Of a stretch of DNA of 64,000 nt, positions 46,088-62,087 are shown one piece after another (the first letter of the stretch is position 1; each line of letters opens with the position of its first letter). Source of the DNA: Chloroflexota bacterium (GTDB lineage Bacteria > Chloroflexota > Anaerolineae > Anaerolineales > Anaerolineaceae); assembly GCA_021779955.1 (NCBI GenBank), contig JAJXZS010000050.1, positions 62,001 to 126,000 on the forward strand, written 5' to 3'. The notes beneath the pieces are model-generated. The model ran no database searches. It was not told the origin of the DNA and worked only from the letters and a program-made list of their open reading frames with translations. The position numbers and the translations under genes were made by a program.

Positions 46088-48201
46088 TGATTCGTGTTCC
46101 TTTTTGTCGCCTGGGCCATGGCAAATGGATAGACGGGTCCGCTGCCGTTCTTGCGAAGAAGATATCCTGCCATGGTCAGCGTCCAACCTGAATCTATAAT
46201 ATCATCGATAACCAAAACAGGCCCTCCGGGAAGAGGTTTTTTAATCGAGAGTGAATTGAGCACATTCCGCGCCTGCATGCTCTCGTTTTGCATCGTCTTC
46301 TGCTCTGGGGCATCAGAACTGCGAATCAATACCGGGTGGAAGGGGATTCCCAGCCGGTCTGCAATTCGCTGGGCAATGTCTGCCACGAGCTCAGGCCGCC
46401 GCCTTGAAGGTATTGCAGTGATCCATTGGGGCGCTGGATTGGGTCTCCAGCGCATCTTGATCAAATGTGCCGCGGCGTCGGCAAGCTCATCTGAAAATCG
46501 ATCGGTTTGATATTTCCCCTCCCGCACCAGTTTTCCCCAACCAACGTCACCGTAATAGCTCAAGCTTTGTCCTATTTCATTCTGCAGGTAAGGCGGCACC
46601 TTTTTACCCGTTGGAAGAATTCCTGAAGGTGCTTTTTCCTTTGGCTTGATCACTATCTGTAATTCGTTCAGGAAATCTTCCGCTTCGATCACCCTGGAGG
46701 AGGCGACATCAGAAGATAAGCCTTTGCTTTGACAGTTGGCGCACCGTCCACAGGGATGCGCAGTCGTATCGCCAAGGGATCTCTGCAGGAACTCCATGAG
46801 ACAGCCGCGAGAATGGACATAGCGGTTGATCTCATGCCATTCTTTCCAGCGCAAATCGGTGAACTTCTTTATCTGCGCATCGTCGGGCTGCCATTCGCGT
46901 CCGGTAAGACGGTAAGCATAGTCATCACCTTCCATGGTTCGCTCTACAACACTGTCGACCTCAAGGAGTCTGAGCACCTGCCGGATTCCGCCCGACGTGT
47001 AGTTGACTTTTCGCATCAGTTGGTCGACCGAAATCCCTTTCTCCTTGGATAGAGCCGCCAGGGTGGCTTCGAAAGCCTTGTTGCTTGGCGTGGCATTGTT
47101 GATCATAAATTTCTGGATATCTTCATCTTCATCGCCGCAGAGCAGGATGCCGTAGGCTTTATCCAGGCTCCTGCCTGCCCTGCCCACCTGCTGGTAGTAC
47201 TCGATCACCGATTTGGGTCGCTGGAAATGGATGACGAATGAGACGTCCGGCTTGTCAAAGCCCATCCCCAGGGCAACTGTGGCGACAAGAAGTTCGATCT
47301 TGTTCTCGATGAACGCCGCTTCGAGCTCGGGCCGGTTGATTTCAGTCTCATCCTGGGCGTGATAGGCTTCGGCTTTATAGTTGTGCTGCTTTAACCATCG
47401 GGCCACTATCTCGGTATCATGTACGGTCTGGCAATAGACGATGCCGCTGCCTTTGAACTTCGATAGGTTTTCAGCCAACCAGGCCAGGCGTTCTGCCCGG
47501 CTCCCAACGAAAAGGTTCTGCAGGCGGAGAGATTCACGAGCAAGCGGACCCTTGAACAACTCAAGGGTGGAGCCGAACTGCGCCTGTACGTCTGCGATCA
47601 CCCTTAGATTTGCGGTGGCTGTTGTGCCGAGTACGGGCATCTCTTTCGGGAGCGTCCGTAGAAGCTGACCGATTCTCCGGTAGTCCGGCCTGAAATCGTG
47701 CCCCCAATCGGAAATACAATGGGCTTCGTCCACCACGATCAGGCCCATATTCCCTGCAATTCGCGGCAGGACGAAGCTTTGAAAATGTTCGCTTGCCAGG
47801 CGTTCCGGTGAGATCAAGACGATGTCGCACTCGTTGTTGATTAAAGCCAGTTCTGCTTTCGCCCAATCTTGCCGGTTTCCACTGTTGATGGTTTGTGCCC
47901 GGATGCCGATGCGATTTGCCGTCTCGATCTGGTTACGCATAAGGGAAAGCAGCGGGCTGATGAGCAGCGTTGGACCTGCGCCCTGCTCGCGGAGCAGCCT
48001 GGTTGCAAGAAAATACACCAGGCTCTTGCCCCATCCGGTACGCTGTACCACCAGCGCCCGCTTCCTTTTCAATGCAACCGCTTCGATAGCTTCCCACTGG
48101 CCGGGGCGAAAGTCCTTGTCAGTGCCTAGCATTTGACGCAGTAAATCAAGGCAATGCTGCTTGATTGCGGAGTTGGCTTCGATGAGTTCCCCAGCTGCCA
48201 T
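46084..48201 (-). CDS. RecQ-family helicase with C-terminal phosphoribosyltransferase-like domain
   Basis: A 705-residue protein from the ATG at 48201. Residues 1-350 are the RecQ helicase core: Walker A QRTGWGKS at 53-60, DEAH at 158-161, then FQRPKSVIEYYQQVGRAGRS as motif VI. A four-Cys zinc site follows (CLMEFLQRS, then PCGRCANC). Near the C-terminus VLVIDDIIDSGWT (662-674) is the PRPP-binding loop of type I phosphoribosyltransferases, preceded by HPVLIRSSDAPEQ. The promoter at 48291-48319 excludes a start at 48288; 48243 is possible. Coupled to the DprA-like gene. Confidence 0.82.
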   Translation of the reverse strand: MAAGELIEANSAIKQHCLDLLRQMLGTDKDFRPGQWEAIEAVALKRKRALVVQRTGWGKSLVYFLATRLLREQGAGPTLLISPLLSLMRNQIETANRIGIRAQTINSGNRQDWAKAELALINNECDIVLISPERLASEHFQSFVLPRIAGNMGLIVVDEAHCISDWGHDFRPDYRRIGQLLRTLPKEMPVLGTTATANLRVIADVQAQFGSTLELFKGPLARESLRLQNLFVGSRAERLAWLAENLSKFKGSGIVYCQTVHDTEIVARWLKQHNYKAEAYHAQDETEINRPELEAAFIENKIELLVATVALGMGFDKPDVSFVIHFQRPKSVIEYYQQVGRAGRSLDKAYGILLCGDEDEDIQKFMINNATPSNKAFEATLAALSKEKGISVDQLMRKVNYTSGGIRQVLRLLEVDSVVERTMEGDDYAYRLTGREWQPDDAQIKKFTDLRWKEWHEINRYVHSRGCLMEFLQRSLGDTTAHPCGRCANCQSKGLSSDVASSRVIEAEDFLNELQIVIKPKEKAPSGILPTGKKVPPYLQNEIGQSLSYYGDVGWGKLVREGKYQTDRFSDELADAAAHLIKMRWRPNPAPQWITAIPSRRRPELVADIAQRIADRLGIPFHPVLIRSSDAPEQKTMQNESMQARNVLNSLSIKKPLPGGPVLVIDDIIDSGWTLTMAGYLLRKNGSGPVYPFAMAQATKRNTNQ

Positions 48202-48290
48202 TGGTGTGCCGCCTTGTGTGCGATGATGAGTTCTCTCCAGCATTCGAATACCCCGGGTGCTGGTGCAAGGACCGTAATGAAAGCACAACT

Positions 48291-48345: not shown

Positions 48346-50676
48346 TTACGATCGCTCCCTCGTCCCACCTTTTTCAGCATGTGTGCTGACCCATGGAATG
48401 ACCAGTTCGCCTGTGGGATGGATAGGATAGATCGAATCGCCAAGAGTGATCGAAAGGTTCTCAGTCAATGGGAAGAGTGGCTTGACGGTGATTTGTTCGT
48501 GTGTGATGACGATCCGCAGTTTTTGCCCGCGCACCTCGAACGGAAGCGTCACCTGGCGCCAGTGCTCGGGCAGGCGTGGATTGATCGAAATTGTATCTCC
48601 CAGGCACTGGATGCCGCACAGTCCGAACACGGCTGCCATCCAGGATCCCCCGCTGCTGGCCGAATGTGTGCCTCCGATATAGAGCTTGCCGACATACTGC
48701 TTGCCCTCGCCGGTTAGATCGATGGTTGCCGTCTTGAGGAAATACTTGTACGCCCAATCCACCTTACCGATCTGAGACGCGATCAGCGAATAGGAGCAAG
48801 CGCTGAGGCTTGATCCATGTTCGGTTCTTGGTTCGTAATACTCCCAGTTCGATTCTTTTGTCAGCGCTGTGAACCGTTCGCTGAATAGCGCGAGCATCAA
48901 CACCACGTCCGACTGTTTGATGATTTGAGTATTCGTTGCCAATCCATTGCCGCCGCCGAGGTATTCGTTGGGGTCCAGCCGGCGCATCAGCAGGTTTTCG
49001 AGAGAGGTGTCTTCGAGTGAGAAGTAGCCGTCAAATTGAGGGACGACCGAACCCTCAGGCAGTTCGTCCGGGAGGTACAAATTGGCAGCCACAACTGCGA
49101 TGCGAGATAGGTCTGCCTCAAAACCCAGGGAAGCTACCAGGCGGTCATAGAACTCGGGCGAGTTCTTTTGCAGATAGTCGGAAAGGAACAGGCAGATATC
49201 GAAGGTGTGCGCAATCAGGCGATTGGTAAAGGCATTATTGTGAACACGCTCATGATATTCATCCGGACCGGTGACATCCAGGATTTCATGCTGCTGTTTA
49301 TCGGGACTGTAATAGGCATACGACATGAAAAAGCGTGCGCATTCGAAAACAACCTCAGCCCCGCCGTCGTACCAGATGCTCGCATCCCCTGTGGCAACGT
49401 AGTATTTCCAGAATGCATAGGGGATGTCGGCGCTGATGTGGACCTGCTTGTCGCGGAAGTACGTGCGCATGGGTCGGTCGGTGAAAATATCGGTCAGGTT
49501 GAAAAGTGTGCACACATCGTCGCCGGTGTCCTGGCTTTCCCAGGCGTAGAATGCACCCCGGTAGCCATACTCTCTCGCTTTTCGGCGCGCGCCTTCAAGC
49601 GTGTGATAGCGGTACAGCAGCAAGTTGCGCGCAATCTCCGGAAAGGCATGCATGAAGAACGGGAGCATAAAGATCTCTGTATCCCAGAAAATGGCTCCCT
49701 TGTACATCTGACCCGAAATCCCCCTTGCCGGGATGGATGCGGACGCGCTGTGGGCGGGTACGCTCGCCAGGAGTTGGTAGATGCTGTAGCGCAGGGCTTC
49801 CTGCGCAACCGGATCGCCTTCAATTTCGATGTCGCAAGCGTCCCAACGCTGCTTCCAGAGTTCACCGTGGGCTGCGCGTTGAGCTTCGAAGCCTTGTCTG
49901 GCTGCCATGCGGCACAGCTCACGGCTCGTGCCCATTGGGTCAGGTTCATCCGCGGAGGCAACCAGGGCAACAAACTTATAAAACGTAAAACCCCTGTTGA
50001 GATGATCCACCCGAAAAGTACGCAGCACCGAGTGCTGATCGAGCAGTTCCCCGGCATCTTCGGGTATTGTGCGATTCTTATTTGAGAAGACGATACATTC
50101 GGATAAAGCCACGGGGACCGAATTTTCGTGAGTCACAGCCCCCAGGGATACAATATCGTCCTCGATATGCGCAGAGATGTCGTCCAAATGCGGACCATTG
50201 ATGTCCCAGACCTCGCCGTCAATACCTGTCTGGATTGTTACGCTGCAATCGCGGTCTGAGATGAGTGAGAACTCCAGGCATAGCAGGTGAAGCTGCGCAA
50301 GCGAGGCGAACCGCTGCGACTTGAGCGTGATTCGCGCGCCGTCAGACGTTTCGAAGATGGTCTCGCGCGTGTGAATCGCGGTATGTATGTTGAGGTTTTG
50401 GGTATGGCTCAATACTTTACTGGAGAGCGTGCTGAGCGCTTCGGTGCCGTAAAAGACCTGCGCAAACCCGGCGTTCGGCAGGTTGACCGGTTCGCGCCAT
50501 TGATCTCCAACTTTGTCGTAGAGGCCTGAAACGATGGTGGCTGTCTTTTCTTCCTTCCTGAATTCATCCAGAGTACCGCGATAACCGAAATAGCCATTCC
50601 CGATCAAGAACTTGATGCCCTGGCGGTCGATGTCTTGCGGCAATAATTGGTTTGTCTCTGTAATATTCCATTCCAT
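48346..50676 (-). CDS. GH65 disaccharide phosphorylase, copy 1
   Basis: A 776-residue glycoside hydrolase family 65 protein. The N-terminal beta-sandwich begins WNITETN and GIKFLIGNGYFGYRGTLDE. The (alpha/alpha)6 barrel holds Glu473 in VTGPDEYHERVHNN, the general acid of the family, and IIKQSDVVLML, the phosphate-side Lys-Gln. No signal peptide, so it acts inside the cell. GH65 members split maltose, trehalose, kojibiose or nigerose with phosphate to beta-glucose 1-phosphate plus glucose. Specificity is not readable; the GH87-like gene nearby favours nigerose-type links. RBS AAGGA. Confidence 0.88.
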   Translation of the reverse strand: MEWNITETNQLLPQDIDRQGIKFLIGNGYFGYRGTLDEFRKEEKTATIVSGLYDKVGDQWREPVNLPNAGFAQVFYGTEALSTLSSKVLSHTQNLNIHTAIHTRETIFETSDGARITLKSQRFASLAQLHLLCLEFSLISDRDCSVTIQTGIDGEVWDINGPHLDDISAHIEDDIVSLGAVTHENSVPVALSECIVFSNKNRTIPEDAGELLDQHSVLRTFRVDHLNRGFTFYKFVALVASADEPDPMGTSRELCRMAARQGFEAQRAAHGELWKQRWDACDIEIEGDPVAQEALRYSIYQLLASVPAHSASASIPARGISGQMYKGAIFWDTEIFMLPFFMHAFPEIARNLLLYRYHTLEGARRKAREYGYRGAFYAWESQDTGDDVCTLFNLTDIFTDRPMRTYFRDKQVHISADIPYAFWKYYVATGDASIWYDGGAEVVFECARFFMSYAYYSPDKQQHEILDVTGPDEYHERVHNNAFTNRLIAHTFDICLFLSDYLQKNSPEFYDRLVASLGFEADLSRIAVVAANLYLPDELPEGSVVPQFDGYFSLEDTSLENLLMRRLDPNEYLGGGNGLATNTQIIKQSDVVLMLALFSERFTALTKESNWEYYEPRTEHGSSLSACSYSLIASQIGKVDWAYKYFLKTATIDLTGEGKQYVGKLYIGGTHSASSGGSWMAAVFGLCGIQCLGDTISINPRLPEHWRQVTLPFEVRGQKLRIVITHEQITVKPLFPLTENLSITLGDSIYPIHPTGELVIPWVSTHAEKGGTRERS

Positions 50677-50777
50677 GGTACGTCCTTGATCTACTTGTAT
50701 GCGCTGCGCTAAGTTGTCAGTTCTCCCCTGAAGACCGGTAAAAGAGGCACTTCCCGCCGGGGAATCATAAGTACGCG

Positions 50778-53012
50778 CTAGATTTTTATTGAGATGCCTG
50801 TCCCGTCCAGTTCACATGCCTTATCGAAGAAATTGACTCTTACCGGGTCTCCTTCAACGACATGCAAAAAGGCTTTTGCCTGGTTCACTTCCACCTTGAT
50901 CACAGATTGTCGATACGTCACCTGAAAGCTGTAACTTTTCCAGTGCCCGGGTATGGACGGCTTGAAAGACAGCAGGTCGCCGTCTGAGCGCATGCCGCCA
51001 AAACCGTATACGATATTCATCCATGCTGCCGCAATCGAGGTCGTATGGATCCCTTCGCACGCGTTCCGGTTGTAATTGTCCAGGTCGATGCGGGTTGCAA
51101 AGCGGAAGAAATCGAAGGCTTCCTGCGAGCGCCCCAGCTCGGCTGCGAGGATGGAATGGACCGAGGGCGAGAGCGAAGATTCGTGAATGCAGCGCGGTTC
51201 ATAGTATTCGTAGTTGGCGCGCTTTTCTGCCGCTGAAAACGACTGGTTGTACAGGAACATGAACATGAGCACGTCCGGCTGCTTGATCATGTCGTTGCGA
51301 TAGATCCGGTCGTACGCCCAATGTGAATAGAGCGGAAATTCCTCGACAGGGATGGCATCGACATCGATGTGCGGCAGGTCGAAAAACCCCAGATGCTGCT
51401 CGAACAGTCCCGTGGACAGGTCATATGGGATCAGCATCTCCTCCGCCATGCGTTTCCATTCTGCCAGCTCGGACGTTGTGACACCCACACTGGCAGGAGG
51501 GATGCTCTTCAATACCTCGAGCGTGTACTCGAACGTGCGTTTTGCCATGTAGTTGGTGTACGCATTGTGGTTGACCATCATTTGGAACTCGTCCGGGCCC
51601 ATCACGGCGTAATAACCAAACTTCCCCCCGGCCGACCACTGTCCCCGCGTGGCCAGGAAGCGGCAAATCTGGACGAGAAGCTCAGCGCCTTCACTGCGCA
51701 GAAATTCCGTATCGCCCGTCACATGCGCGTAATGCCAGACCGCATAGGCAACCGCCGTTGTTGGCTGCAATTGAAGACTGGCGTGCTGCCAAAGCGTGCA
51801 GCTTTCAGTGCCGTCGGATGTGGCAACCGGGAAACACGCTCCCTCGCAATCCAGATCCTTCGCGCGCGCCATTGCCTGCGGCATGGTCTTGTACCGGAAA
51901 TCGATCAACGATTTGGCTGCCGCTGGATTGCTGAAGAGATAGAACGGCAGGCAGTAGGTTTCGGTATCCCAAAAGGCGTTGCCGTTATACGCTTCGCCGG
52001 TTAACCCTTTGGCCCCGATGTTTGCGCCTTTCAACGCGCCGCGGTAGGTCTGCTGCATCTGGAAGATGCAAAAACGGATCCCTTGCTGGGTTTCAGGGTC
52101 GCCTTCGATGGTGATATCGGATTTCGACCAGAAGCCAGCCCAGTAGCGGCGGTTTTCTTCGAGGATTGCTGAGTAATCCTTCGTGACGCATTGCATCGCC
52201 GACACGCCTTTGTTCCAGGCTTCCTCCAGCGGCTGATTCGGGTCGCGTTCCGTATAAAGAATCACCGGCCTTTCGACGATTGATTCCCGGCCCTGTTGAA
52301 GTTCGAGGTCAAAGACGTATCCTGTGAACTTCTCGCCTTCGATGGGCTCCGGCTTCGCGTTTGCAGAGACACGCATCCCTGCAAATACCCGCTGGTTCAC
52401 CGAAGTGCTGACCCCCAGCAGCATCCCTGTGTCTTTCCGCGGGCAAGACCAGAAATTCTGCCCGTACATGCGGTGCGGCGTCGAAAAATCCAGGCCCAGC
52501 GTCAGCTTGGGCCTGCCTGAGAAGTTCAAGGGCAGGAAGCGAATTTGCTGGCACGCCAGCTCGTTGGTTTCCATGCTCAGCAGGCGTAGAAATACGATCC
52601 TGATCTTTTTACCGGAAGCGGTTTCCCAGACAGTTTCACGGCGCAACTCGCCGCTTCGAAAATCCAGTTCGCGTCGAAATTCTGAGTATTTGCACCTGGC
52701 CAGGTCGAGAATTTCGCCGTCCAATTCAATGCGTGTATACAACCAATCGACTGTATTGACCATAAAGGCCAGACGGGTGGAAATCCCCTTGTAAGCCGTT
52801 CCTTCGGTGAAGCGCTCTTCATAGACCCCATTCAAGTAAGTGCCGGTAAGGTGGTCACCGGAGTAGCCCTCCTCAAAATACCCGCGCGTCCCCTGGTACT
52901 CATTCGCAAGCGAAAACAAAGACTCGGAGACTTCGCTCCGGTCGGGATGGAAACCGTCTTCGATGATTTTCCAAGGGTGAACCTGTAAGTATTGATCTGC
53001 GATTTTTGCCAT
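50778..53012 (-). CDS. GH65 disaccharide phosphorylase, copy 2
   Basis: A 744-residue GH65 protein, a distant paralog of the adjacent one. The N-terminus PWKIIEDGFHPDRSEVSESL and the block SLANEYQGTRGYFEEGYSG belong to the branch often annotated kojibiose/trehalose phosphorylase-like. Glu475 in MGPDEFQMMVNHNAYTN is the general acid; the usual His after the Tyr is replaced (GPDEFQ). MIKQPDVLMFMFLY keeps the phosphate-side Lys-Gln. Cytoplasmic. Its promoter carries a LacI operator at 53110-53123. It is first in the minus-strand pair of GH65 genes, 101 bases before copy 1. Confidence 0.87.
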   Translation of the reverse strand: MAKIADQYLQVHPWKIIEDGFHPDRSEVSESLFSLANEYQGTRGYFEEGYSGDHLTGTYLNGVYEERFTEGTAYKGISTRLAFMVNTVDWLYTRIELDGEILDLARCKYSEFRRELDFRSGELRRETVWETASGKKIRIVFLRLLSMETNELACQQIRFLPLNFSGRPKLTLGLDFSTPHRMYGQNFWSCPRKDTGMLLGVSTSVNQRVFAGMRVSANAKPEPIEGEKFTGYVFDLELQQGRESIVERPVILYTERDPNQPLEEAWNKGVSAMQCVTKDYSAILEENRRYWAGFWSKSDITIEGDPETQQGIRFCIFQMQQTYRGALKGANIGAKGLTGEAYNGNAFWDTETYCLPFYLFSNPAAAKSLIDFRYKTMPQAMARAKDLDCEGACFPVATSDGTESCTLWQHASLQLQPTTAVAYAVWHYAHVTGDTEFLRSEGAELLVQICRFLATRGQWSAGGKFGYYAVMGPDEFQMMVNHNAYTNYMAKRTFEYTLEVLKSIPPASVGVTTSELAEWKRMAEEMLIPYDLSTGLFEQHLGFFDLPHIDVDAIPVEEFPLYSHWAYDRIYRNDMIKQPDVLMFMFLYNQSFSAAEKRANYEYYEPRCIHESSLSPSVHSILAAELGRSQEAFDFFRFATRIDLDNYNRNACEGIHTTSIAAAWMNIVYGFGGMRSDGDLLSFKPSIPGHWKSYSFQVTYRQSVIKVEVNQAKAFLHVVEGDPVRVNFFDKACELDGTGISIKI

Positions 53013-53094
53013 CCGATATTTCCTATCTTAAGTGTCACAATCCAATCACCGGTTATGAAAAGGGCATTCACCTGCGATAACCGGAATCAATAAA

Positions 53095-53122
53095 ATAGTA
53101 AGGATAAACGTTGAACGTTCAA
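53095..53122 (-). promoter_or_regulatory. Promoter of the GH65 pair
   Basis: Minus strand TTGAAC (53117-53122), inside the LacI operator, and TACTAT (53095-53100), spacing 16. Operator binding would block RNA polymerase directly. Confidence 0.6.
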
Positions 53123-53123
53123 C
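53110..53123. promoter_or_regulatory. LacI-family operator 1 (GH65 promoter)
   Basis: GTTGAACGTTCAAC, a perfect 14-base palindrome with a central CG, the form bound by LacI/GalR proteins. Identical to the copies at 54165 and 55617. Confidence 0.82.
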
Positions 53124-53130
53124 TTGATCC

Positions 53131-53155
53131 TGAAAAAAAAGAGCTTATGTGCTCT
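53131..53155 (-). terminator. Intrinsic terminator of the lacI-type gene
   Basis: Read on the minus strand, AGAGC, loop, GCTCT and then eight T. The stem overlaps the stop codon of the regulator, so lacI transcription ends before the GH65 promoter. Confidence 0.75.
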
Positions 53156-54149
53156 CCCTTTCGACCAGGTTGACAGGCAGAACCAGCCGGCTGCCGGTGG
53201 AATTCGAATGATTCAAGATATTCAGTAAAGTCCTCGTGGCGGTTTCGCCTTTTTCGAAAATATTCTGATCGACCGTGGTCAATTCGGGGTAAACCTGATA
53301 GCCAAGGTAAATATTATCGAAGCCGACCAGGCCGAAATCTTCGCCAACCTTGACGCCCTTTTTGAGCAAGCCATGCAGGATACCCACGGCGATCATGTCT
53401 TCTGTACAGAATGCGGCATCGAGGCCTTGAGCGATCAACGCCTCGGCGTATTGAATCCCGGCTTCGAATGGGACACCTGTTTTGTCGAATACAGTCTCTC
53501 TTAATTTGGCTTCCTTCAGCGCTCGTTTGTATCCCTGGTAACGTTTTTGCATCAAGGGCCCGTGCAGTTCAACCGAACATAGGGCGATATTTCGAAAGCC
53601 CTTCTCGATCAGGTGCTGGGTTGCCAGGTAGCCGCCGGTGGTATCGTCGGAATTGACATACGAGAAATTGGCATCGCTGGTTTGAGAATAATTGTCTATC
53701 AAAACCACCGGGATCGACTTGGACTTGAGCACCTTGAGGAAATTCCGGTCGAATTCCCCGACGGCTAGGATTCCGTCCACGTTACGCGCGTCGATCCAAT
53801 CGCTCACCTGAACCAACTTTTCCTTGTATTGCACGGGGAAGATGATCAGGTCGTAGTAGGCTTCGTTGCGTAGAACGGAGTAGACGCTGTCCATGATGAT
53901 GTTGTAGAAGGGGCTGCTGGTCAGTGTGTTCGGGTCGACGTAAGACGGCAGGATCATGCCAATCAATCGCGATTGATTGGTGATCAAAGAACGCGCCGCC
54001 AGGTTGGGTTTATAACCCAGGTGCTTCGCAGCCGCCAGAACGGCCAGGCGGGTTTCTTCCGAGCACTTGTCTTTGCCCGTGAACACGTTCGAGACTGTTG
54101 TGCGGGAAACCCCTGCTTCTCTGGCTACGTCGATGATTGTCACACTCAT
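53145..54149 (-). CDS. LacI-family transcriptional repressor of the glucan locus
   Basis: A 334-residue LacI/GalR protein. The N-terminal helix-turn-helix and hinge helix are VTIIDVAREAGVSRTTVSNVF and YKPNLAARSL; the rest is the sugar-binding core with QSRLIGMILPSY and DAAFCTEDMIAVGILHGLL. The ATG at 54149 follows AAGGAAG; the GTG six bases upstream is less likely. Operators of identical sequence lie at its own promoter, at the GH65 promoter and between the ATPase and ABC genes, so it very likely represses all of them until a nigero- or malto-type sugar binds. Confidence 0.92.
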   Translation of the reverse strand: MSVTIIDVAREAGVSRTTVSNVFTGKDKCSEETRLAVLAAAKHLGYKPNLAARSLITNQSRLIGMILPSYVDPNTLTSSPFYNIIMDSVYSVLRNEAYYDLIIFPVQYKEKLVQVSDWIDARNVDGILAVGEFDRNFLKVLKSKSIPVVLIDNYSQTSDANFSYVNSDDTTGGYLATQHLIEKGFRNIALCSVELHGPLMQKRYQGYKRALKEAKLRETVFDKTGVPFEAGIQYAEALIAQGLDAAFCTEDMIAVGILHGLLKKGVKVGEDFGLVGFDNIYLGYQVYPELTTVDQNIFEKGETATRTLLNILNHSNSTGSRLVLPVNLVEREST

Positions 54150-54164
54150 AATCACACTTCCTTT

Positions 54165-54178
54165 GTTGAACGTTCAAC
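54165..54178. promoter_or_regulatory. LacI-family operator 2 (autoregulation)
   Basis: GTTGAACGTTCAAC, positioned just downstream of the -10 of the lacI promoter, over the expected transcription start. Suggests autorepression. Confidence 0.82.
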
Positions 54179-54181
54179 ACA

Positions 54182-54210
54182 ATTGTCCAGGATATGCATC
54201 GTTTTGTCAA
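54182..54210 (-). promoter_or_regulatory. Promoter of the lacI-type gene
   Basis: Minus strand TTGACA (54205-54210) and GACAAT (54182-54187), spacing 17. The -35 overlaps the stop codon of the ATPase gene upstream. Confidence 0.68.
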
Positions 54211-55580
54211 GACTCTTGTTGCCTGGCCGACAACTCGCGCGCGTAATCTCTTGTAAGGTGCGTCATTTGATAGCAAGGCTCATCTTGATTCCCGGGTTTT
54301 TGATCGAGGAGGGAATGATCGATCAGGCCGGCCAATTTGAATTCAACATCTGCGTCCGGCGCGACCGACTCCACGTCCTTTGCGCTGAAACTGCCTTCGA
54401 AAGCAGAAAGGCGCAGAAAAAACCGCTGCAGCTCCACCGTAAGCAGTTGGTAACTCCAGTCGAACGCAGCGCGGCGGGTCTGTTGCTGGGGCGGCATCGA
54501 AATCGCGTTGTGGTCGAAGAAGGTCAATCCGTTGCTCCTCAATCGTGTCAGGATGGATTGCGGAGTTGAGTACTTGATCTGGTAAGCTGCCAGTTCGATT
54601 GCCAGTGGAAGCCCGTCGAGAAGCTGGCACAGTTCCGTAATATCTTCCACGTTTTCATTATTAAGAGAAAAAGAGCTGCAGACTGTCTGGGCGCGCTGGA
54701 CGAACAGGGATACCGCCGGGGATTTGGCCCAAAGCTGCTGGTCCTTGACCGTGTCGATACCGGTAATGAATAACGGCTGGACGATGAATTCATGTTCACC
54801 ATAGAGGTTCAGTGAAATGCGGCTGGTAACGATGATTCTCAACAACGGAAGGCTCTCCAGCAGCTCTGTGACGATGGAACTTGCGGCGCGAATCTGCTCG
54901 AAATTATCCAGAATGAGAATGTATTCGCGGTCTTGAAGAGCAGTTATAATCCGATCAATCGTTCCACCGGGTATTCCCATTGCCCTCGCAATAGTCTCAG
55001 CCGTTCCTGAAGGCTCTCGCAATTCGGATAAATCGACAAAACAGGCTTCACAACTCATGCTATGTGCCAGTTCGATGCTTAAGCGCGTCTTGCCGATGCC
55101 GCCAGGCCCGATCAGGGTGAGCAGGCGGTTTCCTTCGTGCGCAAAGATGCGCGAGAGCGAATGAAGCGTCGCTTCGACACCGACCAGGCTGGTCAGCGGA
55201 GCAGGAAGATTGATCTGCGGGATTGGAAGATCCCGCTTTGCTGGAGAACGGATTTCCCAGTGATTCAGAGATTGGAAAATGGTGGTGACGAGTTCACGCA
55301 ATTGATAGAAGTAGGTCGCCCGGCTGATGTTCAGGCGGTCGGCATACACATCGGCGATCGCTTCCGGGTTGGAAAGGACAACGTCGAGAATGCGGCGCTG
55401 GCTGGGAGGGTAGGGAACTTCCCGCATATATTCCTGTACCGCTTTCAATCCGCCCCGTTCACCGATCCAGGACTGGTAGGGTTCCTGCTGGATCAAGCGC
55501 ATTGGAAAGCGGGGAAAATGAAGGAGCGCCTTGACGTGGTCTTCGTCCCAGGGACCGGTGACAGCGATATGTCGATTCAT
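54207..55580 (-). CDS. STAND (NB-ARC-like) ATPase regulator, short form
   Basis: A 457-residue protein. Residues 1-110 contain a predicted winged helix (IADVYADRLNISRATYFYQL) of a type seen at the N-terminus of Chloroflexota STAND proteins. The NTPase has Walker A GPGGIGKT at 158-165, Walker B YILILDNFEQI and the sensor region IIVTSRISLNLYGEHEF. It ends right after the usual YQMTHLTRDYAREL segment, so the long TPR sensor of AfsR/MalT-like proteins is missing. The ATG at 55580 is chosen because a promoter at 55601-55629 excludes the GTG at 55610. It shares the operator at 55617 with the divergent ABC operon. Confidence 0.7.
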   Translation of the reverse strand: MNRHIAVTGPWDEDHVKALLHFPRFPMRLIQQEPYQSWIGERGGLKAVQEYMREVPYPPSQRRILDVVLSNPEAIADVYADRLNISRATYFYQLRELVTTIFQSLNHWEIRSPAKRDLPIPQINLPAPLTSLVGVEATLHSLSRIFAHEGNRLLTLIGPGGIGKTRLSIELAHSMSCEACFVDLSELREPSGTAETIARAMGIPGGTIDRIITALQDREYILILDNFEQIRAASSIVTELLESLPLLRIIVTSRISLNLYGEHEFIVQPLFITGIDTVKDQQLWAKSPAVSLFVQRAQTVCSSFSLNNENVEDITELCQLLDGLPLAIELAAYQIKYSTPQSILTRLRSNGLTFFDHNAISMPPQQQTRRAAFDWSYQLLTVELQRFFLRLSAFEGSFSAKDVESVAPDADVEFKLAGLIDHSLLDQKPGNQDEPCYQMTHLTRDYARELSARQQES

Positions 55581-55600
55581 CGAGGATTCCATACATGTAG

Positions 55601-55629
55601 ATAATAGCACATTTTTGTTGAACGTTCAA
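55601..55629 (-). promoter_or_regulatory. Promoter of the STAND ATPase gene
   Basis: Minus strand TTGAAC (55624-55629), inside the operator, and TATTAT (55601-55606), spacing 17: a near-consensus promoter controlled by the same palindrome as the ABC operon. Confidence 0.68.
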
Positions 55630-55630
55630 C
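55617..55630. promoter_or_regulatory. LacI-family operator 3 (divergent ATPase / ABC promoters)
   Basis: GTTGAACGTTCAAC again. On the plus side TATAAT follows directly at 55631-55636; alternatively TTGAAC at 55618 pairs with TATCTC at 55642. Either way a bound repressor covers the promoter of the sugar ABC operon. Confidence 0.82.
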
Positions 55631-55776
55631 TATAATTAGACTATCTCTAGACCAAATCCTTTTTTAATGACCCTATACTCATGGTAGATAAAAGTGCCGG
55701 AGCGTATCGCGCCTTTACCTGACTCTCGTTCTACCAAACCACTTGCCCCAAAATATATAAGGAGAAGGAATGCAGC

Positions 55777-57273
55777 ATGAATACTAAAAAGATCGCGCTC
55801 GTTATCAATCTGATACTGCTACTTGCGCTGGTGCTTAGCGCTTGCAGTAGCCCGGCTGCCACGACGCCGCCAGCGACCACGGAAGCGCCAGCGACAACGG
55901 AAGCAGTTGTCCCAACCACTGCAACCGAAGCAACCGTAGCGCCAACTGAATCACCGCTCCCCGTTGTACTCAAGTTGCCCGAGCAGATCGCAGGCGGACG
56001 CCCCGTTGCCATCACAGTCGCCGGAGCTCCCCCCGATTCCCAGCCGACATTAGCCGCCAACTACCAGGCTGGCATCGATCGTTTCGAAGCCCTCTATCCC
56101 AATGTGACCATCCGCCCGGATTCCTACACTTACGATCCCGCTACGTTCGCAGCGATGGTCGCTGGCAATACCGTCCCCACCCTCTTCCAGGCATATTTCA
56201 CTGACCCTGCGAAAATGGTCTCCGATGGTGTTGCTGCCGATCTGACCCCCATCTTCGATTCCCTCGGCCTCAAAGATGTCTACAATCCGCAGGTTCTCGA
56301 TCTCGTGACGGTTGATGGTAAGATCTATGGTATCCCCATGAAAGCCTACGCCATGGGACTCGCATACAACAAGACCATGCTCAAGGCAGCCGGATTCGAT
56401 AACCCCCCCACAACCTGGGAAGAACTGGCCACTATGGCAAAAGCCCTCACCAATCGCGACACAGGCGTTGCAGGTTTCTCATTCATCTTTGGTGATCCTG
56501 TGCAGGCCGGTTGGCACACTTCCATCCTCTCGTTCGACTTCGGCGTCAAGAATACCGACCTCGTCAATATGGTGGATGGTAAATTGGTTGCCAGCTTCGA
56601 CAACCAACCCATGCTGGACACGCTGAACATGATCCACGACTTGCGCTGGGTTTCCGATGTTCTGCCCCGCGAGAATAACGACTGGGGCAAGAACGGCGAT
56701 GCATTGGCCACCGGTAAGGAAGCCATGGCGTTGATGGCCAGCGATCAGTTCACCTGGATGAAGCAGAACTATCCCGATATCGATATGAGCCAGTTCGGAT
56801 TTGCACCCCTCCCTGCTGTAAATGGCACCAGTGTCTCACAGGTGGGCGGCGATGTGGCTATGGTCAGCGCAACCGCGACCTCCGATCAGATCGAAGCTGC
56901 TGCATATTACCGCTTGTGGCTCCAACTCGATCCAAATGAAATCGATATCACCTACAAACTGAGCGCCTCCGATCCCACCGTTGTCATCGGCGGACCTACC
57001 ATGCCCCTTTACACCGGGGATTACCAGGCTGCCAAAGCGGCGCTGGATACCAAATACTCCAACCTGCCCGTTGACTACGCCCTCTTCCAGGAAGGCATCG
57101 TTTCCGGAAAGACCCAGGTAATGCTTGAGCCCGGATTTGGCGAAGGACAGGATTTCTACGCCGCCCTTGGTCCGGTGGTCAGCACCATCGTGACCGACGA
57201 AAAGGCTGACATCCCGGCTCTCCTTAAAGAGGCCCAAAATACCTTCCAGGTCAACGTACTCGACCTGAAATAG
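55777..57273 (+). CDS. CUT1-type sugar ABC transporter substrate-binding lipoprotein
   Basis: A 498-residue extracellular solute-binding protein (MalE-like cluster). The lipobox LSAC puts the anchor Cys near residue 23, followed by a Thr/Pro/Ala linker to about residue 65. The mature fold shows GIDRFEALYPNVTI, DGKIYGIPMKAYAMGLAYNKTML and NPPTTWEELATMAKAL, typical of oligosaccharide binders. RBS AAGGAGAAGGA is strong. First gene of an operon with two permeases, a GH87-like enzyme and a P-loop kinase; ligand probably an alpha-gluco-oligosaccharide. Confidence 0.9.
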   Translation: MNTKKIALVINLILLLALVLSACSSPAATTPPATTEAPATTEAVVPTTATEATVAPTESPLPVVLKLPEQIAGGRPVAITVAGAPPDSQPTLAANYQAGIDRFEALYPNVTIRPDSYTYDPATFAAMVAGNTVPTLFQAYFTDPAKMVSDGVAADLTPIFDSLGLKDVYNPQVLDLVTVDGKIYGIPMKAYAMGLAYNKTMLKAAGFDNPPTTWEELATMAKALTNRDTGVAGFSFIFGDPVQAGWHTSILSFDFGVKNTDLVNMVDGKLVASFDNQPMLDTLNMIHDLRWVSDVLPRENNDWGKNGDALATGKEAMALMASDQFTWMKQNYPDIDMSQFGFAPLPAVNGTSVSQVGGDVAMVSATATSDQIEAAAYYRLWLQLDPNEIDITYKLSASDPTVVIGGPTMPLYTGDYQAAKAALDTKYSNLPVDYALFQEGIVSGKTQVMLEPGFGEGQDFYAALGPVVSTIVTDEKADIPALLKEAQNTFQVNVLDLK

Positions 57274-57301
57274 CCCATACTTACTTTTGGTTGCACCGAA
57301 A

Positions 57302-57335
57302 GGAACAGGCAGGATGGCAATATTCTGCCTGTTCC
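57302..57335. promoter_or_regulatory. Perfect hairpin between sugar-binding protein and permease genes
   Basis: GGAACAGGCAG (57302-57312) pairs perfectly with CTGCCTGTTCC (57325-57335). No T run follows. As at 32290, it lies just after a binding-protein gene and may protect that part of the mRNA or attenuate the permeases. Confidence 0.65.
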
Positions 57336-57371
57336 CCGAATATTCTTCAGGGTTAGGAGCTTTGAACCACC

Positions 57372-58301
57372 ATGACCCCATCTACATCAGGCTCGCAAAC
57401 CAAACGTGCACGCTCATTTCAACCCAGAAAAATCTTTGATCAAATTTACGCATACCTGTTTCTTGCACCGGCTCTTTTGATTTTTGCCTTCTTCAGCTGG
57501 AACCCAATTTTCAAAACGGTCATTTTCAGCTTTGAAAAAGTTGGCTTGCGGGGCCCAACAGGTTGGGTTGGCCTAAAAAACTACATTCGCATGTTCGGCA
57601 ACCCGCTTTTTGGAACAGCCTGGGTGAATACGCTCGAATTTGTGATCTTGAGCATCATTTTCGGATTCATGGTTCCGATCCTGCTGGCGCTGATGATCAG
57701 AGAAATGCGCCGGTTCGGCCCCTTCTTCCAGGTGATCACTTACATTCCCACGCTCGTCCCTGTTGTTGTGGCGCTGCTCGTCTGGAGAATGATCTATTAT
57801 CCGGAAGGTGGCGTCCTGAACAGCTTTTTGGCTTTGCTTCACGTCCCGCCGCAGCTCTGGCTGCAAAATCCCCATTTGGTTAAATTCGCGTTGATTCTCG
57901 TGATGACGTGGATGGGAGCGGGCGGTTCCATTTTGATCTATCTGGCCGCTTTGGGCGAAATCAATCCTGAAATCTATGAAGCCGCCGAGTTGGATGGCGT
58001 ATCGCCCATTCAACGCATTCTCTTCCTGACTTTGCCTCTTTTGAAATCCCGAATGGCGATGATGATGGTCCTCCAAATCGTCGCCGTTACCCAGGTTTTT
58101 ACCGAACCCTTTATCCTTTCCACCGGTGGACCTGGCAACAGCTCGCTCACCCCTGTCCTGCAAATCTATCGCACAGCTTTCGAGAACAGCGACTTTGGAC
58201 TGGCATCGACCTGGAGCGTTTCTTTACTTGTAGTCCTGGGAACTTTCATGGCTTTATATGTTTGGCTCAATCACAAGAATGAAGAACAACGCTTGGCTTA
58301 G
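57372..58301 (+). CDS. CUT1 sugar ABC permease (MalF-like)
   Basis: A 309-residue permease with six hydrophobic segments, beginning with a cytoplasmic Arg/Lys-rich tail. The EAA loop is NPEIYEAAELDGVSPIQRIL, where the shared ATPase docks. VGLKNYIRMFGNPLFGTAWVN is the usual first external region. The operon has no ATPase gene, so a multi-use MsmK/UgpC-type ATPase encoded elsewhere must energise it. Confidence 0.9.
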   Translation: MTPSTSGSQTKRARSFQPRKIFDQIYAYLFLAPALLIFAFFSWNPIFKTVIFSFEKVGLRGPTGWVGLKNYIRMFGNPLFGTAWVNTLEFVILSIIFGFMVPILLALMIREMRRFGPFFQVITYIPTLVPVVVALLVWRMIYYPEGGVLNSFLALLHVPPQLWLQNPHLVKFALILVMTWMGAGGSILIYLAALGEINPEIYEAAELDGVSPIQRILFLTLPLLKSRMAMMMVLQIVAVTQVFTEPFILSTGGPGNSSLTPVLQIYRTAFENSDFGLASTWSVSLLVVLGTFMALYVWLNHKNEEQRLA

Positions 58302-58327
58302 CGCCGCTACATCCAAAGGAGTACTTC

Positions 58328-59188
58328 ATGAGCAGTAGTCGTGGAATCATGTCAGATGTCGAGTGGCGGTCACCTGCCGGGCGCGTGATTGTGGCCATTT
58401 TCTTCGTCTTTCTGGTGGTCGTAACCCTGGCTTTTCTCTTTCCGTTTGTGTTCACTTTCACGGCAGGCCTCAAGACCAGTTCGACGATCACAGACCCGGG
58501 ATTGAATCTGTTTCCCAAGCTGCCGCAGTGGAAAAACTACCTTGAGGTCTGGCAGCGTTATGACATGATCGGCATGTTTGCCAACACCTTCTATGTTGCG
58601 GCAGGGATTGTGGTGGGTCGGCTTCTGGTTTCGTCCATGGCGGCGTACAGTATTTCGAAATTAAAACCGGCCGGCAAGCGTATCATTGAGGTTTTCATCC
58701 TCCTGACCATGGCCGTCCCCATGATGGCGTACCTTATCCCCCTCTACGTCACGTTGACCGATCTACCCATCTTACACATCAGCCTTGTGAACACTTATTG
58801 GGGGCTCTGGCTGCCGGGTGCTGGCAGTGCGTTTTACATCCTTGTGCTCAAGAATTCGTTCGATCAAATTCCAAAGGAGATTTACGACGCGGCTGCCATG
58901 GATGGGGCATCGCCTGTGCGCTCATTTTTATCCATGACATTGCCCCTTTCGACTCCCATATTGATCGTCCTGGGGCTCTTGACTTTCGTTGGCGCTTGGG
59001 GAGATTTTCTCCTACCCAAGCTGATTCTGCTCCAGCCATCCCTTCAGACGATTTCCGTGCGCTTGTACGCGTTGGACCGCATCTTCCCATTGAACTTGAA
59101 AATGGCAGGCGCCTTCATCGCCTTGCTGCCTCCACTGATTGCAGTTCTCTTGTTCCAGCGCTATATGAAGAGCGGATTGACTTTCTGA
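58328..59188 (+). CDS. CUT1 sugar ABC permease (MalG-like)
   Basis: A 286-residue permease with six hydrophobic segments and the EAA loop PKEIYDAAAMDGASPVRSFL. RBS AAAGGAG precedes the ATG. Its stop overlaps the next start by one base (TGATG), so the surface enzyme that follows is translated together with the importer. Confidence 0.9.
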   Translation: MSSSRGIMSDVEWRSPAGRVIVAIFFVFLVVVTLAFLFPFVFTFTAGLKTSSTITDPGLNLFPKLPQWKNYLEVWQRYDMIGMFANTFYVAAGIVVGRLLVSSMAAYSISKLKPAGKRIIEVFILLTMAVPMMAYLIPLYVTLTDLPILHISLVNTYWGLWLPGAGSAFYILVLKNSFDQIPKEIYDAAAMDGASPVRSFLSMTLPLSTPILIVLGLLTFVGAWGDFLLPKLILLQPSLQTISVRLYALDRIFPLNLKMAGAFIALLPPLIAVLLFQRYMKSGLTF

Positions 59189-61434
59189 TGCCGGGTTCAA
59201 AACTCTCCTGCATTTTCCTTTTCTTTGTTTCTCTCCTACTCCTGACGGGTTGTGCGAACAACCCGTCAGGAGCGCCAGGTGTGAGTACCAATTCCCCTGC
59301 CTTGCCGCCCGCGGAAGAAAGCACGCTAACATTGACTCAACCGGTCGCGCCGGTCCTTACCAGCGCCCCATTGCCGATTGTTTGGGTACGGATTATGAAT
59401 GTGGGCACGCAGGGTTTTCTCTACGAAGAAGATGGGAAGCTTGCTATCGGTGACGTGGCTGCCGGCGACAACCGCTCGGTTTGGGGAATCGAAGACTATC
59501 AGGGCAGCAAACGGATTCGCAACCAGGCGAGCGGGAATTATCTTTCGATCGAACATGAACAGTCGTTCATCGAAGTTATCCCCATCCAGCCCGATTGGAT
59601 GAGCCCGCGCTGGATGTTCGAAATGGATCCTGCTCAAAACACCGCCGTCATCCGCAACGTGTGGCACAATTGGCAGGTGCTCTTCGTAAAGGACGGCGAA
59701 CTTGCTTATGATCGGACGGACACAACTCAACCCGGCGCGCGCTGGGAACTCCAGCCTACTGAAGGAGGGTCCTTGCTCACGCCCACGCCACCTTCCATTT
59801 CGTTGAAGCCGGCTCCGGCTGAACCCGCAGGCAGCCGTGGTGCGAGCGTTCCCTGGATTGAATATGAAGCCGAAGCCGCAAAAACCAACGGCCAGGTGCT
59901 CGAACCTGACCATACGTTCGGCACATTCCAGTCCGAATCTTCGGGACGCAGCGCCGTCAAACTGGCAGCAAGCGGGCAATACGTCGAATTTGTCGCCGCA
60001 CAGCCTGCGAACTCGATTGTCGTGCGCTACATCATTCCCGATTCCAAAGATGGAACAGGGATGGATGCTACCATCAGCCTCTACGTGGACGGGGTCTTCC
60101 GTCAGAAACTAAAACTGACCTCCAAGTACGCCTGGTCTTACGGGGGTGAAACGCTCACCCTCAATGCGCCGGCAGCCGGAGGCGCCCATCATTTCTACGA
60201 TGAATCCCGCGCTTTGTTGGCGGATATCCCCAAGGGCGCCAGAGTAAGGCTGCAAAAAGATGCGGGCGATACGTCTGAGTACGTAGTCATCGATCTGATC
60301 GACCTTGAGCAGGTGGCTCCTCCAAAATCCATGCCCGATGGGTTCATCTCGATCGCCGATTTCGGAGCGATTCCCAACGACGGCAAGGAGGATGGCGACG
60401 CCATCCGTGCGGCTATCCAACAGGCTCGCGCGAAAAAGACCGGTGTTTGGATCCCTGAAGGCACTTTCGAAAGTGGGGTGGCGCCGTTCGAAGTGAGCGA
60501 TGTCTCCATCCAGGGTGCCGGCATGTGGTATTCGACCATTCACGGCCTGTTCGCCCGCTTCAACTGTGTTGGCAGCAACTGCCGCTATGCCGATTTCGCC
60601 ATCCTGGGCGAAACGATCTTGCGCGACGACAAGTCGCCTGAGAACGGATTCAATGGCGGCGCGGGAACCGGCTCGCGCCTGGAGAACATCTGGGTGGAGC
60701 ATACCAAAGTCGGATATTGGGTGGGTCCCGGAAGCACTGACGGTCTGGTCATACTCAACAGCCGCTTCCGCAACCTCTATGCCGACGGGGTGAACTTTTG
60801 CAACGGAACCAGCAATTCGCTCATCGAAAATTCCCATTTCCGTAACACCGGCGATGATGCGATGGCATCCTGGTCGCCAAAAGGCAGCGGGGTCAATACC
60901 AACAATGTGTTCCGTTTCAATACGGTACAGGTACCCTGGCGGGCCAATTGCATCGCCATCTATGGCGGCGCAGACAATAAGATACAGAACAACCTGTGTG
61001 CCGATGTTGTCACCTATCCGGGAATTTTGATCGCACAGCAGTTCAATTCGAATCCCTTTGGAGGGACAACCCTGGTCGAGCGAAATTCGGTGATTCGCGC
61101 GGGTGGAATGATGTATCATGATCAGCATGGAGCTTTGAAAATCTGGGCCGACGAAGGCGATATTAGCGGCGTGGTGATCAAAGACCTGTTGGTCGACGGC
61201 TCGACCTTTTCAGGCATCGAGCTTCAAGGGAGTCATGCCATCCTGGGCGCAATGTTTGACGGCATCGAAGTGCGCAATGCAGGCACAGATGGTATTTTCC
61301 TCCACTCAGACATCTCAGGTGACGCCTCGTTTTCCAATATTCTTGTTACAAACCCTGGTGGGGCGGGGCTGTTGAATAATTCGCCAAAACTATTGTTCAC
61401 AATAAATCTGGGGAATGGGAACAGCGGTTGGTAA
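59188..61434 (+). CDS. GH87-like alpha-1,3-glucanase / mycodextranase lipoprotein
   Basis: A 748-residue exported enzyme. The signal ends in LLTGC (Cys22), so it is anchored on the cell surface. Residues about 65-195 look like a beta-trefoil carbohydrate module (TQGFLYEEDGKLAIGD). About 220-385 resembles the CBM35-type domain of mycodextranases (WIEYEAEAAKTNGQV, GRSAVKLAASGQYVEF). From ISIADFGAIPNDGKEDGDAI onward it is a right-handed beta-helix with Asp533 (YADGVNF) and Asp556/Asp557 (NTGDDAMASW) as candidate catalytic acids. GH87 enzymes cut alpha-1,3-glucan or nigeran. The start at 59188 overlaps the permease stop; longer starts lie inside that gene. Confidence 0.8.
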   Translation: MPGSKLSCIFLFFVSLLLLTGCANNPSGAPGVSTNSPALPPAEESTLTLTQPVAPVLTSAPLPIVWVRIMNVGTQGFLYEEDGKLAIGDVAAGDNRSVWGIEDYQGSKRIRNQASGNYLSIEHEQSFIEVIPIQPDWMSPRWMFEMDPAQNTAVIRNVWHNWQVLFVKDGELAYDRTDTTQPGARWELQPTEGGSLLTPTPPSISLKPAPAEPAGSRGASVPWIEYEAEAAKTNGQVLEPDHTFGTFQSESSGRSAVKLAASGQYVEFVAAQPANSIVVRYIIPDSKDGTGMDATISLYVDGVFRQKLKLTSKYAWSYGGETLTLNAPAAGGAHHFYDESRALLADIPKGARVRLQKDAGDTSEYVVIDLIDLEQVAPPKSMPDGFISIADFGAIPNDGKEDGDAIRAAIQQARAKKTGVWIPEGTFESGVAPFEVSDVSIQGAGMWYSTIHGLFARFNCVGSNCRYADFAILGETILRDDKSPENGFNGGAGTGSRLENIWVEHTKVGYWVGPGSTDGLVILNSRFRNLYADGVNFCNGTSNSLIENSHFRNTGDDAMASWSPKGSGVNTNNVFRFNTVQVPWRANCIAIYGGADNKIQNNLCADVVTYPGILIAQQFNSNPFGGTTLVERNSVIRAGGMMYHDQHGALKIWADEGDISGVVIKDLLVDGSTFSGIELQGSHAILGAMFDGIEVRNAGTDGIFLHSDISGDASFSNILVTNPGGAGLLNNSPKLLFTINLGNGNSGW

Positions 61435-62087
61435 TGGACCCCAAAACGGACGCTCACCTTCAAGAACTCCTTTCGAACGCCTATATTCTCGGGGGCGCTC
61501 CGTGCAGTGGAAAAAGCACCCTCGCCCAAATGCTCGCCGAACGCCGCGGCCTTGCTTATTACCAGGTGGATGACCATCAGGAGGAGCATTTGCAGCGGGC
61601 CAGGCCGCAAACACAGCCGGTGATGTGTGAATACAGGCGGCGGGACTGGAATAACATCTGGATGCGCCCGGCCGAAGCTTTGCTAAGCGATCTTTTGGCC
61701 TTTGACACTGAAAGATTTCCCTTTATCCTTCAAGATCTTGCAGGGCACGAAGCTGATGGAAGCCTTTTGGTGGAAGGTGCGGCTGTCTGGCCCAAATTTC
61801 TGGATGGCTTCCCTCTAGCCAGGAGTCATGTAATCTTCATGGTTCCCACGCCAGAATTCCAGACTGCGCATTACCAGCAGAGGCCCTGGATCCGGCCCAT
61901 CCTGGAGGCTTGCACCGATCCCCGGCAGGCTTTCGAGCATTGGATGAAAAGGGATGAACTGTTTGGCGCTGCCGTTGCATCGCAGGCTGCCACTCGTGGC
62001 TTTACCACGATCTGGGTGGGCGGCGACACATCTGTTGACCAACTCTATGGCCAAATCTGCATACAGTTTGGCTTTACTGACGAATGA
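61434..62087 (+). CDS. P-loop kinase-like protein at the end of the glucan operon
   Basis: A 217-residue protein whose ATG at 61434 overlaps the GH87 stop by one base (TAATG). Walker A is GAPCSGKS at residues 21-28, as in small-molecule and nucleoside kinases; YYQVDDHQEEHL supplies the acidic second strand and RPWIRPILEACTD a helical lid. No signal peptide. Coupling to the glucan operon suggests it phosphorylates a sugar product or a nucleotide, but no substrate motif is recognised. A second, unrelated P-loop protein of similar style is at 21212. Confidence 0.6.
   Translation: MDPKTDAHLQELLSNAYILGGAPCSGKSTLAQMLAERRGLAYYQVDDHQEEHLQRARPQTQPVMCEYRRRDWNNIWMRPAEALLSDLLAFDTERFPFILQDLAGHEADGSLLVEGAAVWPKFLDGFPLARSHVIFMVPTPEFQTAHYQQRPWIRPILEACTDPRQAFEHWMKRDELFGAAVASQAATRGFTTIWVGGDTSVDQLYGQICIQFGFTDE

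Follow-up and report, generated by a model that had tools for sequence, protein, structure and literature searches.

Alpha-1,3-glucan occurs in fungal walls and in certain bacterial slimes, and the closest described systems for its breakdown products come from L. phytofermentans, in which the GH65 nigerose phosphorylase Cphy_1874 is reported in a cluster with a nearby GH87 enzyme, the GH31_u1 protein Cphy_1877, an ABC transporter and a LacI regulator (PMC9061262). In L. phytofermentans ISDg, moreover, Cphy_3313 is described as a nigerose phosphorylase and Cphy_3314 as an alpha-1,3-oligoglucan phosphorylase (PMC8950772); the locus tags are consecutive and the genes are therefore neighbours. For Prevotella melaninogenica an alpha-1,3-glucan polysaccharide utilisation locus (PUL) built on GH87 has been predicted (PMC13421300), and according to that 2026 paper no GH87-containing PUL with experimental characterisation was known to its authors. 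We examine a stretch of 64,000 nucleotides from a Chloroflexota bacterium of the family Anaerolineaceae (assembly GCA_021779955.1, contig JAJXZS010000050.1, positions 62,001 to 126,000; hereafter the window), in which a GH87 enzyme, two GH65 phosphorylases (GH65A and GH65B), an ABC importer and a LacI repressor are encoded together between positions 48346 and 61434. With a probability of roughly 0.8, we take this to be a locus dedicated to the utilisation of alpha-1,3-glucan.

The individual parts have precedents in other bacteria, and a cluster of GH87, GH65, ABC transporter and LacI genes is already in print for L. phytofermentans. The window locus resembles that Cphy_1874 cluster in bringing these four components together but differs from it in having two GH65 genes, a STAND ATPase gene and three identical operators; furthermore, the L. 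phytofermentans cluster has a GH31 alpha-1,3-glucosidase, whereas a Pfam scan of nine open reading frames (ORFs) of the window locus found no GH31. With Cphy_3313 and Cphy_3314 it shares the arrangement of two GH65 genes side by side. The related locus L143 has no GH87 in its fetched 10 kb, the GH87 of that genome being on another contig, whereas in the window it belongs to the same locus. The P. melaninogenica PUL is of the TonB/Sus type with GH97 and GH99 (PMC13421300), unlike the present one. Among the matches listed for the open-access subset of the literature, none describes a locus of this kind in Chloroflexota, and the matched text that combines Chloroflexi with GH87 concerns viral genes instead (PMC8725595). 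What is notable here is the phylum, the compactness of the locus, its operator logic and the history of its regulators.

Organization of the Locus

The minus strand carries GH65A, GH65B, lacI and the STAND gene, and the plus strand carries the importer and GH87. The features are as follows.

48346..50676, minus strand: GH65A, a GH65 phosphorylase with the Pfam GH65 N, m and C domains and no signal peptide; predicted nigerose phosphorylase (Cphy_3313-type partner clade)
50778..53012, minus strand: GH65B, a GH65 phosphorylase with Pfam GH65 domains and no signal peptide; predicted alpha-1,3-oligoglucan phosphorylase
53111..53122: operator O1, TTGAACGTTCAA, 99 bp upstream of GH65B
53145..54155, minus strand: LacI-family repressor (Pfam LacI and Peripla_BP_3)
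54166..54177: operator O2, TTGAACGTTCAA, 11 bp upstream of lacI
54207..55610, minus strand: STAND ATPase of 467 aa (AAA_22, 1.3e-6; HTH_24 and NB-ARC below cut-off)
55618..55629: operator O3, TTGAACGTTCAA, between the STAND gene and the importer/GH87 unit
55777..57273, plus strand: CUT1 substrate-binding lipoprotein (SBP_bac_8, 1.1e-21; lipobox LSAC)
57372..58301, plus strand: CUT1 permease, MalF/UgpA-like
58328..59188, plus strand: CUT1 permease, MalG/UgpE-like; its stop overlaps the GH87 start
59188..61434, plus strand: predicted GH87 alpha-1,3-glucanase lipoprotein (lipobox LTGC; catalytic domain ~217-748; D533/D556/D557)

An earlier note on this DNA had listed two GH65 proteins, a LacI repressor, a CUT1 importer, a GH87-like enzyme and a shared operator, and each of these was found where it had been placed. 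Its list is to be extended by the STAND ATPase gene, which it had left out although the gene is common to relatives. Its proposal that 48346-62087 forms one locus holds up to 61434; for the last frame, a P-loop ORF on the plus strand (61428-62087), tblastn at E up to 1e-8 gave no match over the searched loci of relatives, and it is not counted as a member.

The Two GH65 Phosphorylases

Both proteins retain the machinery of the family. The catalytic acid E475 and the whole phosphate site (Ser-Ser, His and Lys; described in PMC8626586) are intact in GH65B, while GH65A keeps its acid E473, the Ser-Ser and the His, with Lys changed to Arg as in the glucosylglycerol phosphorylase BsGGP. Specificity was read from published fingerprints (PMC8537180), which are KV[MF]NES for maltose phosphorylase (MP), EEAPxx for kojibiose phosphorylase (KP), TRIGPP for trehalose phosphorylase (TP), DQGQDE for T6PP and FAITQA for oligoNP. 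The letters of GH65B are F-A-S-T-Q-A, with position 416 assigned by hand where the automatic alignment leaves a gap; they share five of the six positions with FAITQA and none with the KP, MP, TP and T6PP motifs. The one difference is S at 394, a position at which I, S, C or T is found in orthologues; at 585 these have mostly S, and the six closest orthologues read F-A-[ISTC]-T-Q-S. GH65A reads E-E-Q-T-Y-G, which is unlike any of the five fingerprints and unlike the E-I-G-P-H-P of BsGGP.

A quickly built tree of 55 rows (51 of them different, with 16 of the 80 GH65 pairs described below) has support values from the Shimodaira-Hasegawa approximate likelihood-ratio test (SH-aLRT) only, with no bootstraps. 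GH65B falls in a clade (SH-aLRT 100) that also contains 6w0p and a more distant protein of the window's genus, and that is sister to, and separate from, the maltose phosphorylases, where 1h54 and two Enterococcus proteins form a clade of their own. GH65A falls in a second clade, A (SH-aLRT 99), which adjoins BsGGP; the exact place of this clade is unsure because the BsGGP branch is long. From two genomes labelled L. phytofermentans, clade A takes in the GH65 that lies downstream in each pair; both pairs share clades A and B with the window pair. The earlier note had held that grouping of both GH65 proteins with maltose or trehalose phosphorylases would speak against its reading; both lie outside the MP clade, and the protein with TP-like letters (L183_x, T-R-I-G), which stands in for trehalose phosphorylase by its motif and is not a characterised enzyme, lies outside clades A and B, as does the one with T6PP-like letters (L187_x). 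Maltose phosphorylase was rejected for both proteins, neither of which has the KV[MF]NES motif or a place in the MP clade, and kojibiose phosphorylase was likewise rejected for GH65A (E-E-Q-T) and GH65B (F-A-S-T), given the unmatched EEAPxx and the tree placement.

Gene order adds to this. Scanning 84,980 species genomes for the GH65B family yielded 295 confirmed relatives, of which 80 were kept, and genes in their fetched flanks were counted by tblastn with the window proteins (E up to 1e-8). A GH65A homologue lies at most 1.5 kb downstream of GH65B in 69 of these 80 loci, there being room for one in 77. Two of the 69 pairs are in the genomes labelled L. phytofermentans, with 52% identity to B and 41% to A. 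GH65B fits an alpha-1,3-oligoglucan phosphorylase, with Cphy_3314 as the counterpart suggested by motif, and GH65A probably serves as the pair's nigerose phosphorylase, with Cphy_3313 as the counterpart suggested by elimination.

It is also important to weigh whether GH65A acts on some other alpha-glucoside (kojibiose, glucosylglycerol or a glucan branch), with alpha-1,3 links left to GH65B alone. Its nearest relative, both among solved enzymes and in the tree, is glucosylglycerol phosphorylase, and it keeps E64, W391 and E392 of kojibiose phosphorylase, but its letters fit neither the KP fingerprint nor that of BsGGP, the KP motif is already present on the two other GH65 proteins of this genome, and A directly follows B in those 69 of 80 loci. 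We consider another substrate for GH65A unlikely. One of the KP-type GH65 proteins (L050, G000:C12:224365-226236) lies in a 991-codon frame together with a beta-phosphoglucomutase domain.

The GH87 Surface Enzyme

The protein at 59188-61434 matches CatAgl_D1 at 8e-50 and CatAgl_D2 at 8e-33 in Pfam (bit scores 169 and 114; cut-off 27), and its best sequence matches in the PDB are the alpha-1,3-glucanases 7c7d, 5zru and 6k0m. Its AlphaFold model has a mean predicted local distance difference test (pLDDT) score of 71, with higher values in the catalytic part, and in a structural search with this model the top seven hits are all GH87 (Z 41.9-44.5), the next fold being an alginate epimerase at 29.8. 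D533, D556 and D557 are invariant in all seven aligned sequences and correspond to D1045/D1068/D1069 of Agl-FH1, the Asp triad reported as catalytic (PMC10696023). The triad, the lipobox and the fold together identify a genuine GH87 protein, which is predicted to hydrolyse alpha-1,3-glucan and, by its lipobox LTGC, to be anchored on the outside of the membrane. The earlier note had named a non-GH87 family, such as pectate lyase, as the outcome that would overturn its view of this beta-helix protein, and the Pfam match, the PDB matches and the seven top structures all place it within GH87; pectate lyase was rejected, with Pect-lyase and Beta_helix matching only at 3e-6 and 5e-7 and polygalacturonase folds at Z <=25.

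The enzyme shares its catalytic domain, fold and Asp triad with Agl-ST (7c7d), Agl-KA (5zru) and Agl-FH1 (6k0m), and differs from them in being a lipoprotein with a possible ricin-B-like region near its N-terminus. This region (~65-190) is only suggested, by a Pfam match of 0.0054, below cut-off, and a match to 1ups at 1.6e-5, and it is poorly modelled. From fungal walls the GH87 enzyme Agl-EK14 is reported to release glucose, nigerose and nigerotriose; its ricin-B domain follows the catalytic domain on the C-terminal side (PMC10696023), whereas the possible one here is N-terminal.

Since the characterised GH87 enzymes are described as either mutanases or mycodextranases (PMC13421300), the enzyme might instead be a mycodextranase and the locus feed on nigeran, with its alternating alpha-1,3 and alpha-1,4 links, in which case nigerose and nigerosyl-nigerose would be imported. 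Nigerose would need GH65A in any case. However, the nearest solved relatives are alpha-1,3-glucanases, in a comparison that included no mycodextranase sequence, and the products of nigeran would be of little use to GH65B as an alpha-1,3-oligoglucan phosphorylase, which is better suited by alpha-1,3-glucan (mutan, pseudonigeran). We judge a nigeran-feeding locus to be improbable.

Operators and the Predicted LacI Regulon

The assembly of 56 contigs and 2,828,368 bases, in which the window occupies C32:62001-126000, contains TTGAACGTTCAA three times and no more, each time at this locus, and its backward-read control does not occur at all. Relatives carry it as well, with three copies in each of G332 and G712, two in G637, two plus a copy with one change in G397, and one in a 3.5-kb contig of G750; in G332, G397, G712 and G637 it also stands upstream of GH65B, and the LacI orthologues beside the same genes are 61-76% identical. 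A LacI-family protein and a repeated palindromic sequence at its units point to a LacI-controlled regulon with three predicted sites, and from the position of O2 upstream of lacI autoregulation is expected. A first guess at the operator, TGNAANCGNTTNCA, was discarded as occurring at chance level (3 found against 2.6 expected). Promoter-like sites in the locus were at chance level (4 found against 3.6 expected) and terminator-like sites not above it (4 against 5.7). The same 12-bp operator, at L156:6412 and 15633, also flanks the homologous GH65/ABC/LacI set in a Lachnospiraceae genome, even though the LacI there is only 36% identical.

Conservation and Co-occurrence of the Genes

The whole gene set is kept in the same order in G332, G397 and G712. 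Among the 80 GH65B loci, which bear names from Bacillota, Chloroflexota, Planctomycetota, Spirochaetota and Calditrichota among others, both permeases were found in 65, the substrate-binding protein in 57, LacI in 51, GH87 in 14 and the STAND gene in 4. Several loci are on the same contigs as the relatives treated here and are not independent of them (L097=G397, L098=G637, L100=G332, L104=G712, L105=G423, L119=G232).

At the level of whole genomes, GH87 was detected in 28 of the 50 Bacillota-named GH65B carriers among the 80 (one match, in G766, being weak at 1e-6) and in 26 of the 45 with A directly downstream, 5 of the 50 having none there. The baseline, sampled from the class to which L143's genome belongs, gave GH87 in 3 of 196 genomes, two of which are themselves GH65B carriers and the third a weak match. 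The contrast between 28/50 and 3/196 corresponds to a Fisher p of 5e-20, or 2e-22 when the weak G766 and G792 and the known GH65B-carrying baseline genomes G764, G777 and G872 are left out. Within the window's own order, 8 of 400 genomes had GH87, 7 a full-length GH65B orthologue (at least 60% identity) and 6 both (p 4e-11; 2e-9 without the window's genome), where the GH87 and GH65B samples of 400 each were taken as identical genomes. Kinship among genomes inflates all of these co-occurrence p values. In a sample of the phylum, CatAgl_D1 matched in 27 of 400 genomes, in 23 of them over cut-off.

Several further observations weigh against a dedicated alpha-1,3-glucan locus, in addition to the membership of mycodextranases in GH87 and the three residues that GH65A has in common with kojibiose phosphorylase. 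The probable nigerose phosphorylase role of GH65A is argued from how the genes are ordered in other strains and by elimination; there is no detectable GH87 in 22 of the 50 GH65B-bearing Bacillota genomes; G637 has the GH65 pair and LacI but no GH87, and G707 has GH87 without GH65B; G232 carries the locus genes without this LacI or its operator (up to one mismatch), as probably does G423, in which a contig breaks just there. General scavenging of soluble alpha-glucosides, with GH87 as an incidental neighbour, might be read from those 22 genomes, but it is very improbable given that two separate samples show enrichment of GH87 alongside GH65B, that the two halves of the locus are both served by the operators and that the stop of the second permease overlaps the start of GH87.

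Some loci depart from the pattern. At L092:7629-13355 (G637) the GH65 pair, LacI and two operators have neither importer nor GH87 nearby, and at L043, L045, L046 and L048, in other Chloroflexota families, GH87 occurs with CUT1 and LacI-like genes and no GH65A or GH65B homologue was found nearby by tblastn. A metagenome-assembled genome (MAG) labelled Anaerolineaceae has a Clostridium-type GH65 pair (L152:10001-14499), and one labelled Actinomycetota has a Chloroflexota-type pair with GH87 (L103:5553-10228); these odd-phylum pairs reflect either inter-phylum transfer or mis-binned contigs. A search of 5 genomes from L143's genus added no GH65-bearing genome.

Proposed Route of Alpha-1,3-Glucan Utilisation

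Families, catalytic residues, operators, conservation and co-occurrence are computed, and from them we infer the activity of each enzyme, the inducer, the imported sugar and what the STAND protein does. In the dedicated alpha-1,3-glucan locus that we favour, the membrane-anchored GH87 would act outside the cell as an endo-alpha-1,3-glucanase on insoluble alpha-1,3-glucan, releasing nigerose and nigero-oligosaccharides; the CUT1 importer would take up the pieces, using a MalK-type ATPase encoded elsewhere in the genome; the GH65 phosphorylases would split them with phosphate; and beta-phosphoglucomutase would lead into glycolysis. LacI would repress all units through the three identical operators and would probably be released by the imported sugar. 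The complete route from surface cutting through import to phosphorolysis, as the earlier note had sketched it, draws support from the identity of GH87, the motif and clade of GH65B, the A-B gene order and the co-occurrence of the genes.

Two steps lead outside the locus. The locus itself contains no ATPase subunit, and the one OB_MalK-containing ATPase of the genome, encoded on a different contig (C39), would together with the substrate-binding protein and the two permeases make the importer complete; we infer the pairing of this ATPase with the importer. Seven HAD proteins of the genome match the beta-phosphoglucomutase model, two of them over cut-off, with a model that matches in 14 of 14 control genomes and exceeds its cut-off in only 4. 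One of the two (C32:133344-133994, equal to L201:11345-11995) lies ~9.9 kb past the GH87 stop, outside the window, and the other is within the open frame of the KP-type GH65.

Around the locus, a RecQ-like helicase with a phosphoribosyltransferase-like C-terminus (46084-48288) can be recognised by eye adjoining a DprA-like protein (45107-46186), and just past the window L201:4420-6279 encodes a large lipoprotein that by eye resembles a GH5-type glycosidase.

The STAND ATPase and a Possible History of Regulation

The STAND protein (54207-55610) has a helical, weakly helix-turn-helix (HTH)-like N-terminus, and profile searches return NB-ARC/STAND proteins, with ADR2 and AfsR among the matches. 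Its structure model is poor (mean pLDDT 59) and was kept out of the fold search. Homologues were found in 5 relatives. The gene is full-length in G232 (929 aa, L119:6768-9557) and G423 (914 aa, L062:16096-18840), where it has a TPR half (TPR_12 at 2e-17 and 1e-15; TPR_MalT below its cut-off) that the window protein is without, and in G232 it lies less than 0.5 kb from GH65B with no LacI in between. In both of these genomes a sensor of 695 aa adjoins GH87 (L038:3994-6081 and L062:7693-9780); this sensor combines a sugar-binding domain of the LacI type with an end that is weakly STAS-like, and no LacI HTH was matched in it.

Loci that have LacI show a different state. G712, with LacI and three operators, has a shorter sensor of 582 aa (L060:15165-16913) from which the STAS-like end is gone, and its STAND gene (L104:6089-8784) is split by a frameshift into frames of 734 and 161 aa. 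The STAND frame is short in the window (467 aa), G332 (461 aa) and G397 (483 aa), where tblastn found no remnant of the TPR half and the regions searched held no sensor homologue other than LacI; the fetched region of G637 has neither the STAND gene nor the sensor. This graded loss across relatives suggests, somewhat short of even odds, that LacI replaced an older control made up of a MalT-like STAND protein (HTH-like, ATPase and TPR parts) and the sensor with its LacI-type and STAS-like domains. Since the series comprises six loci that are related to each other, and frameshifts in MAGs are possibly errors, we put this replacement forward only as a hypothesis. In three genera the short STAND gene has remained open, with 48-54% identity to its long counterpart; this argues that the gene is still used, and its product may act as a second, nucleotide-switched input beside LacI.

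A compact locus that joins a single GH87 to a phosphorolytic route and a private regulon of three sites would make the inducer, the transporter ligand and the two linkage-specific phosphorylases directly testable. If the replacement is true, the loss of the STAND protein and the sensor where LacI is present would form a natural series for the change of regulator at a sugar locus.

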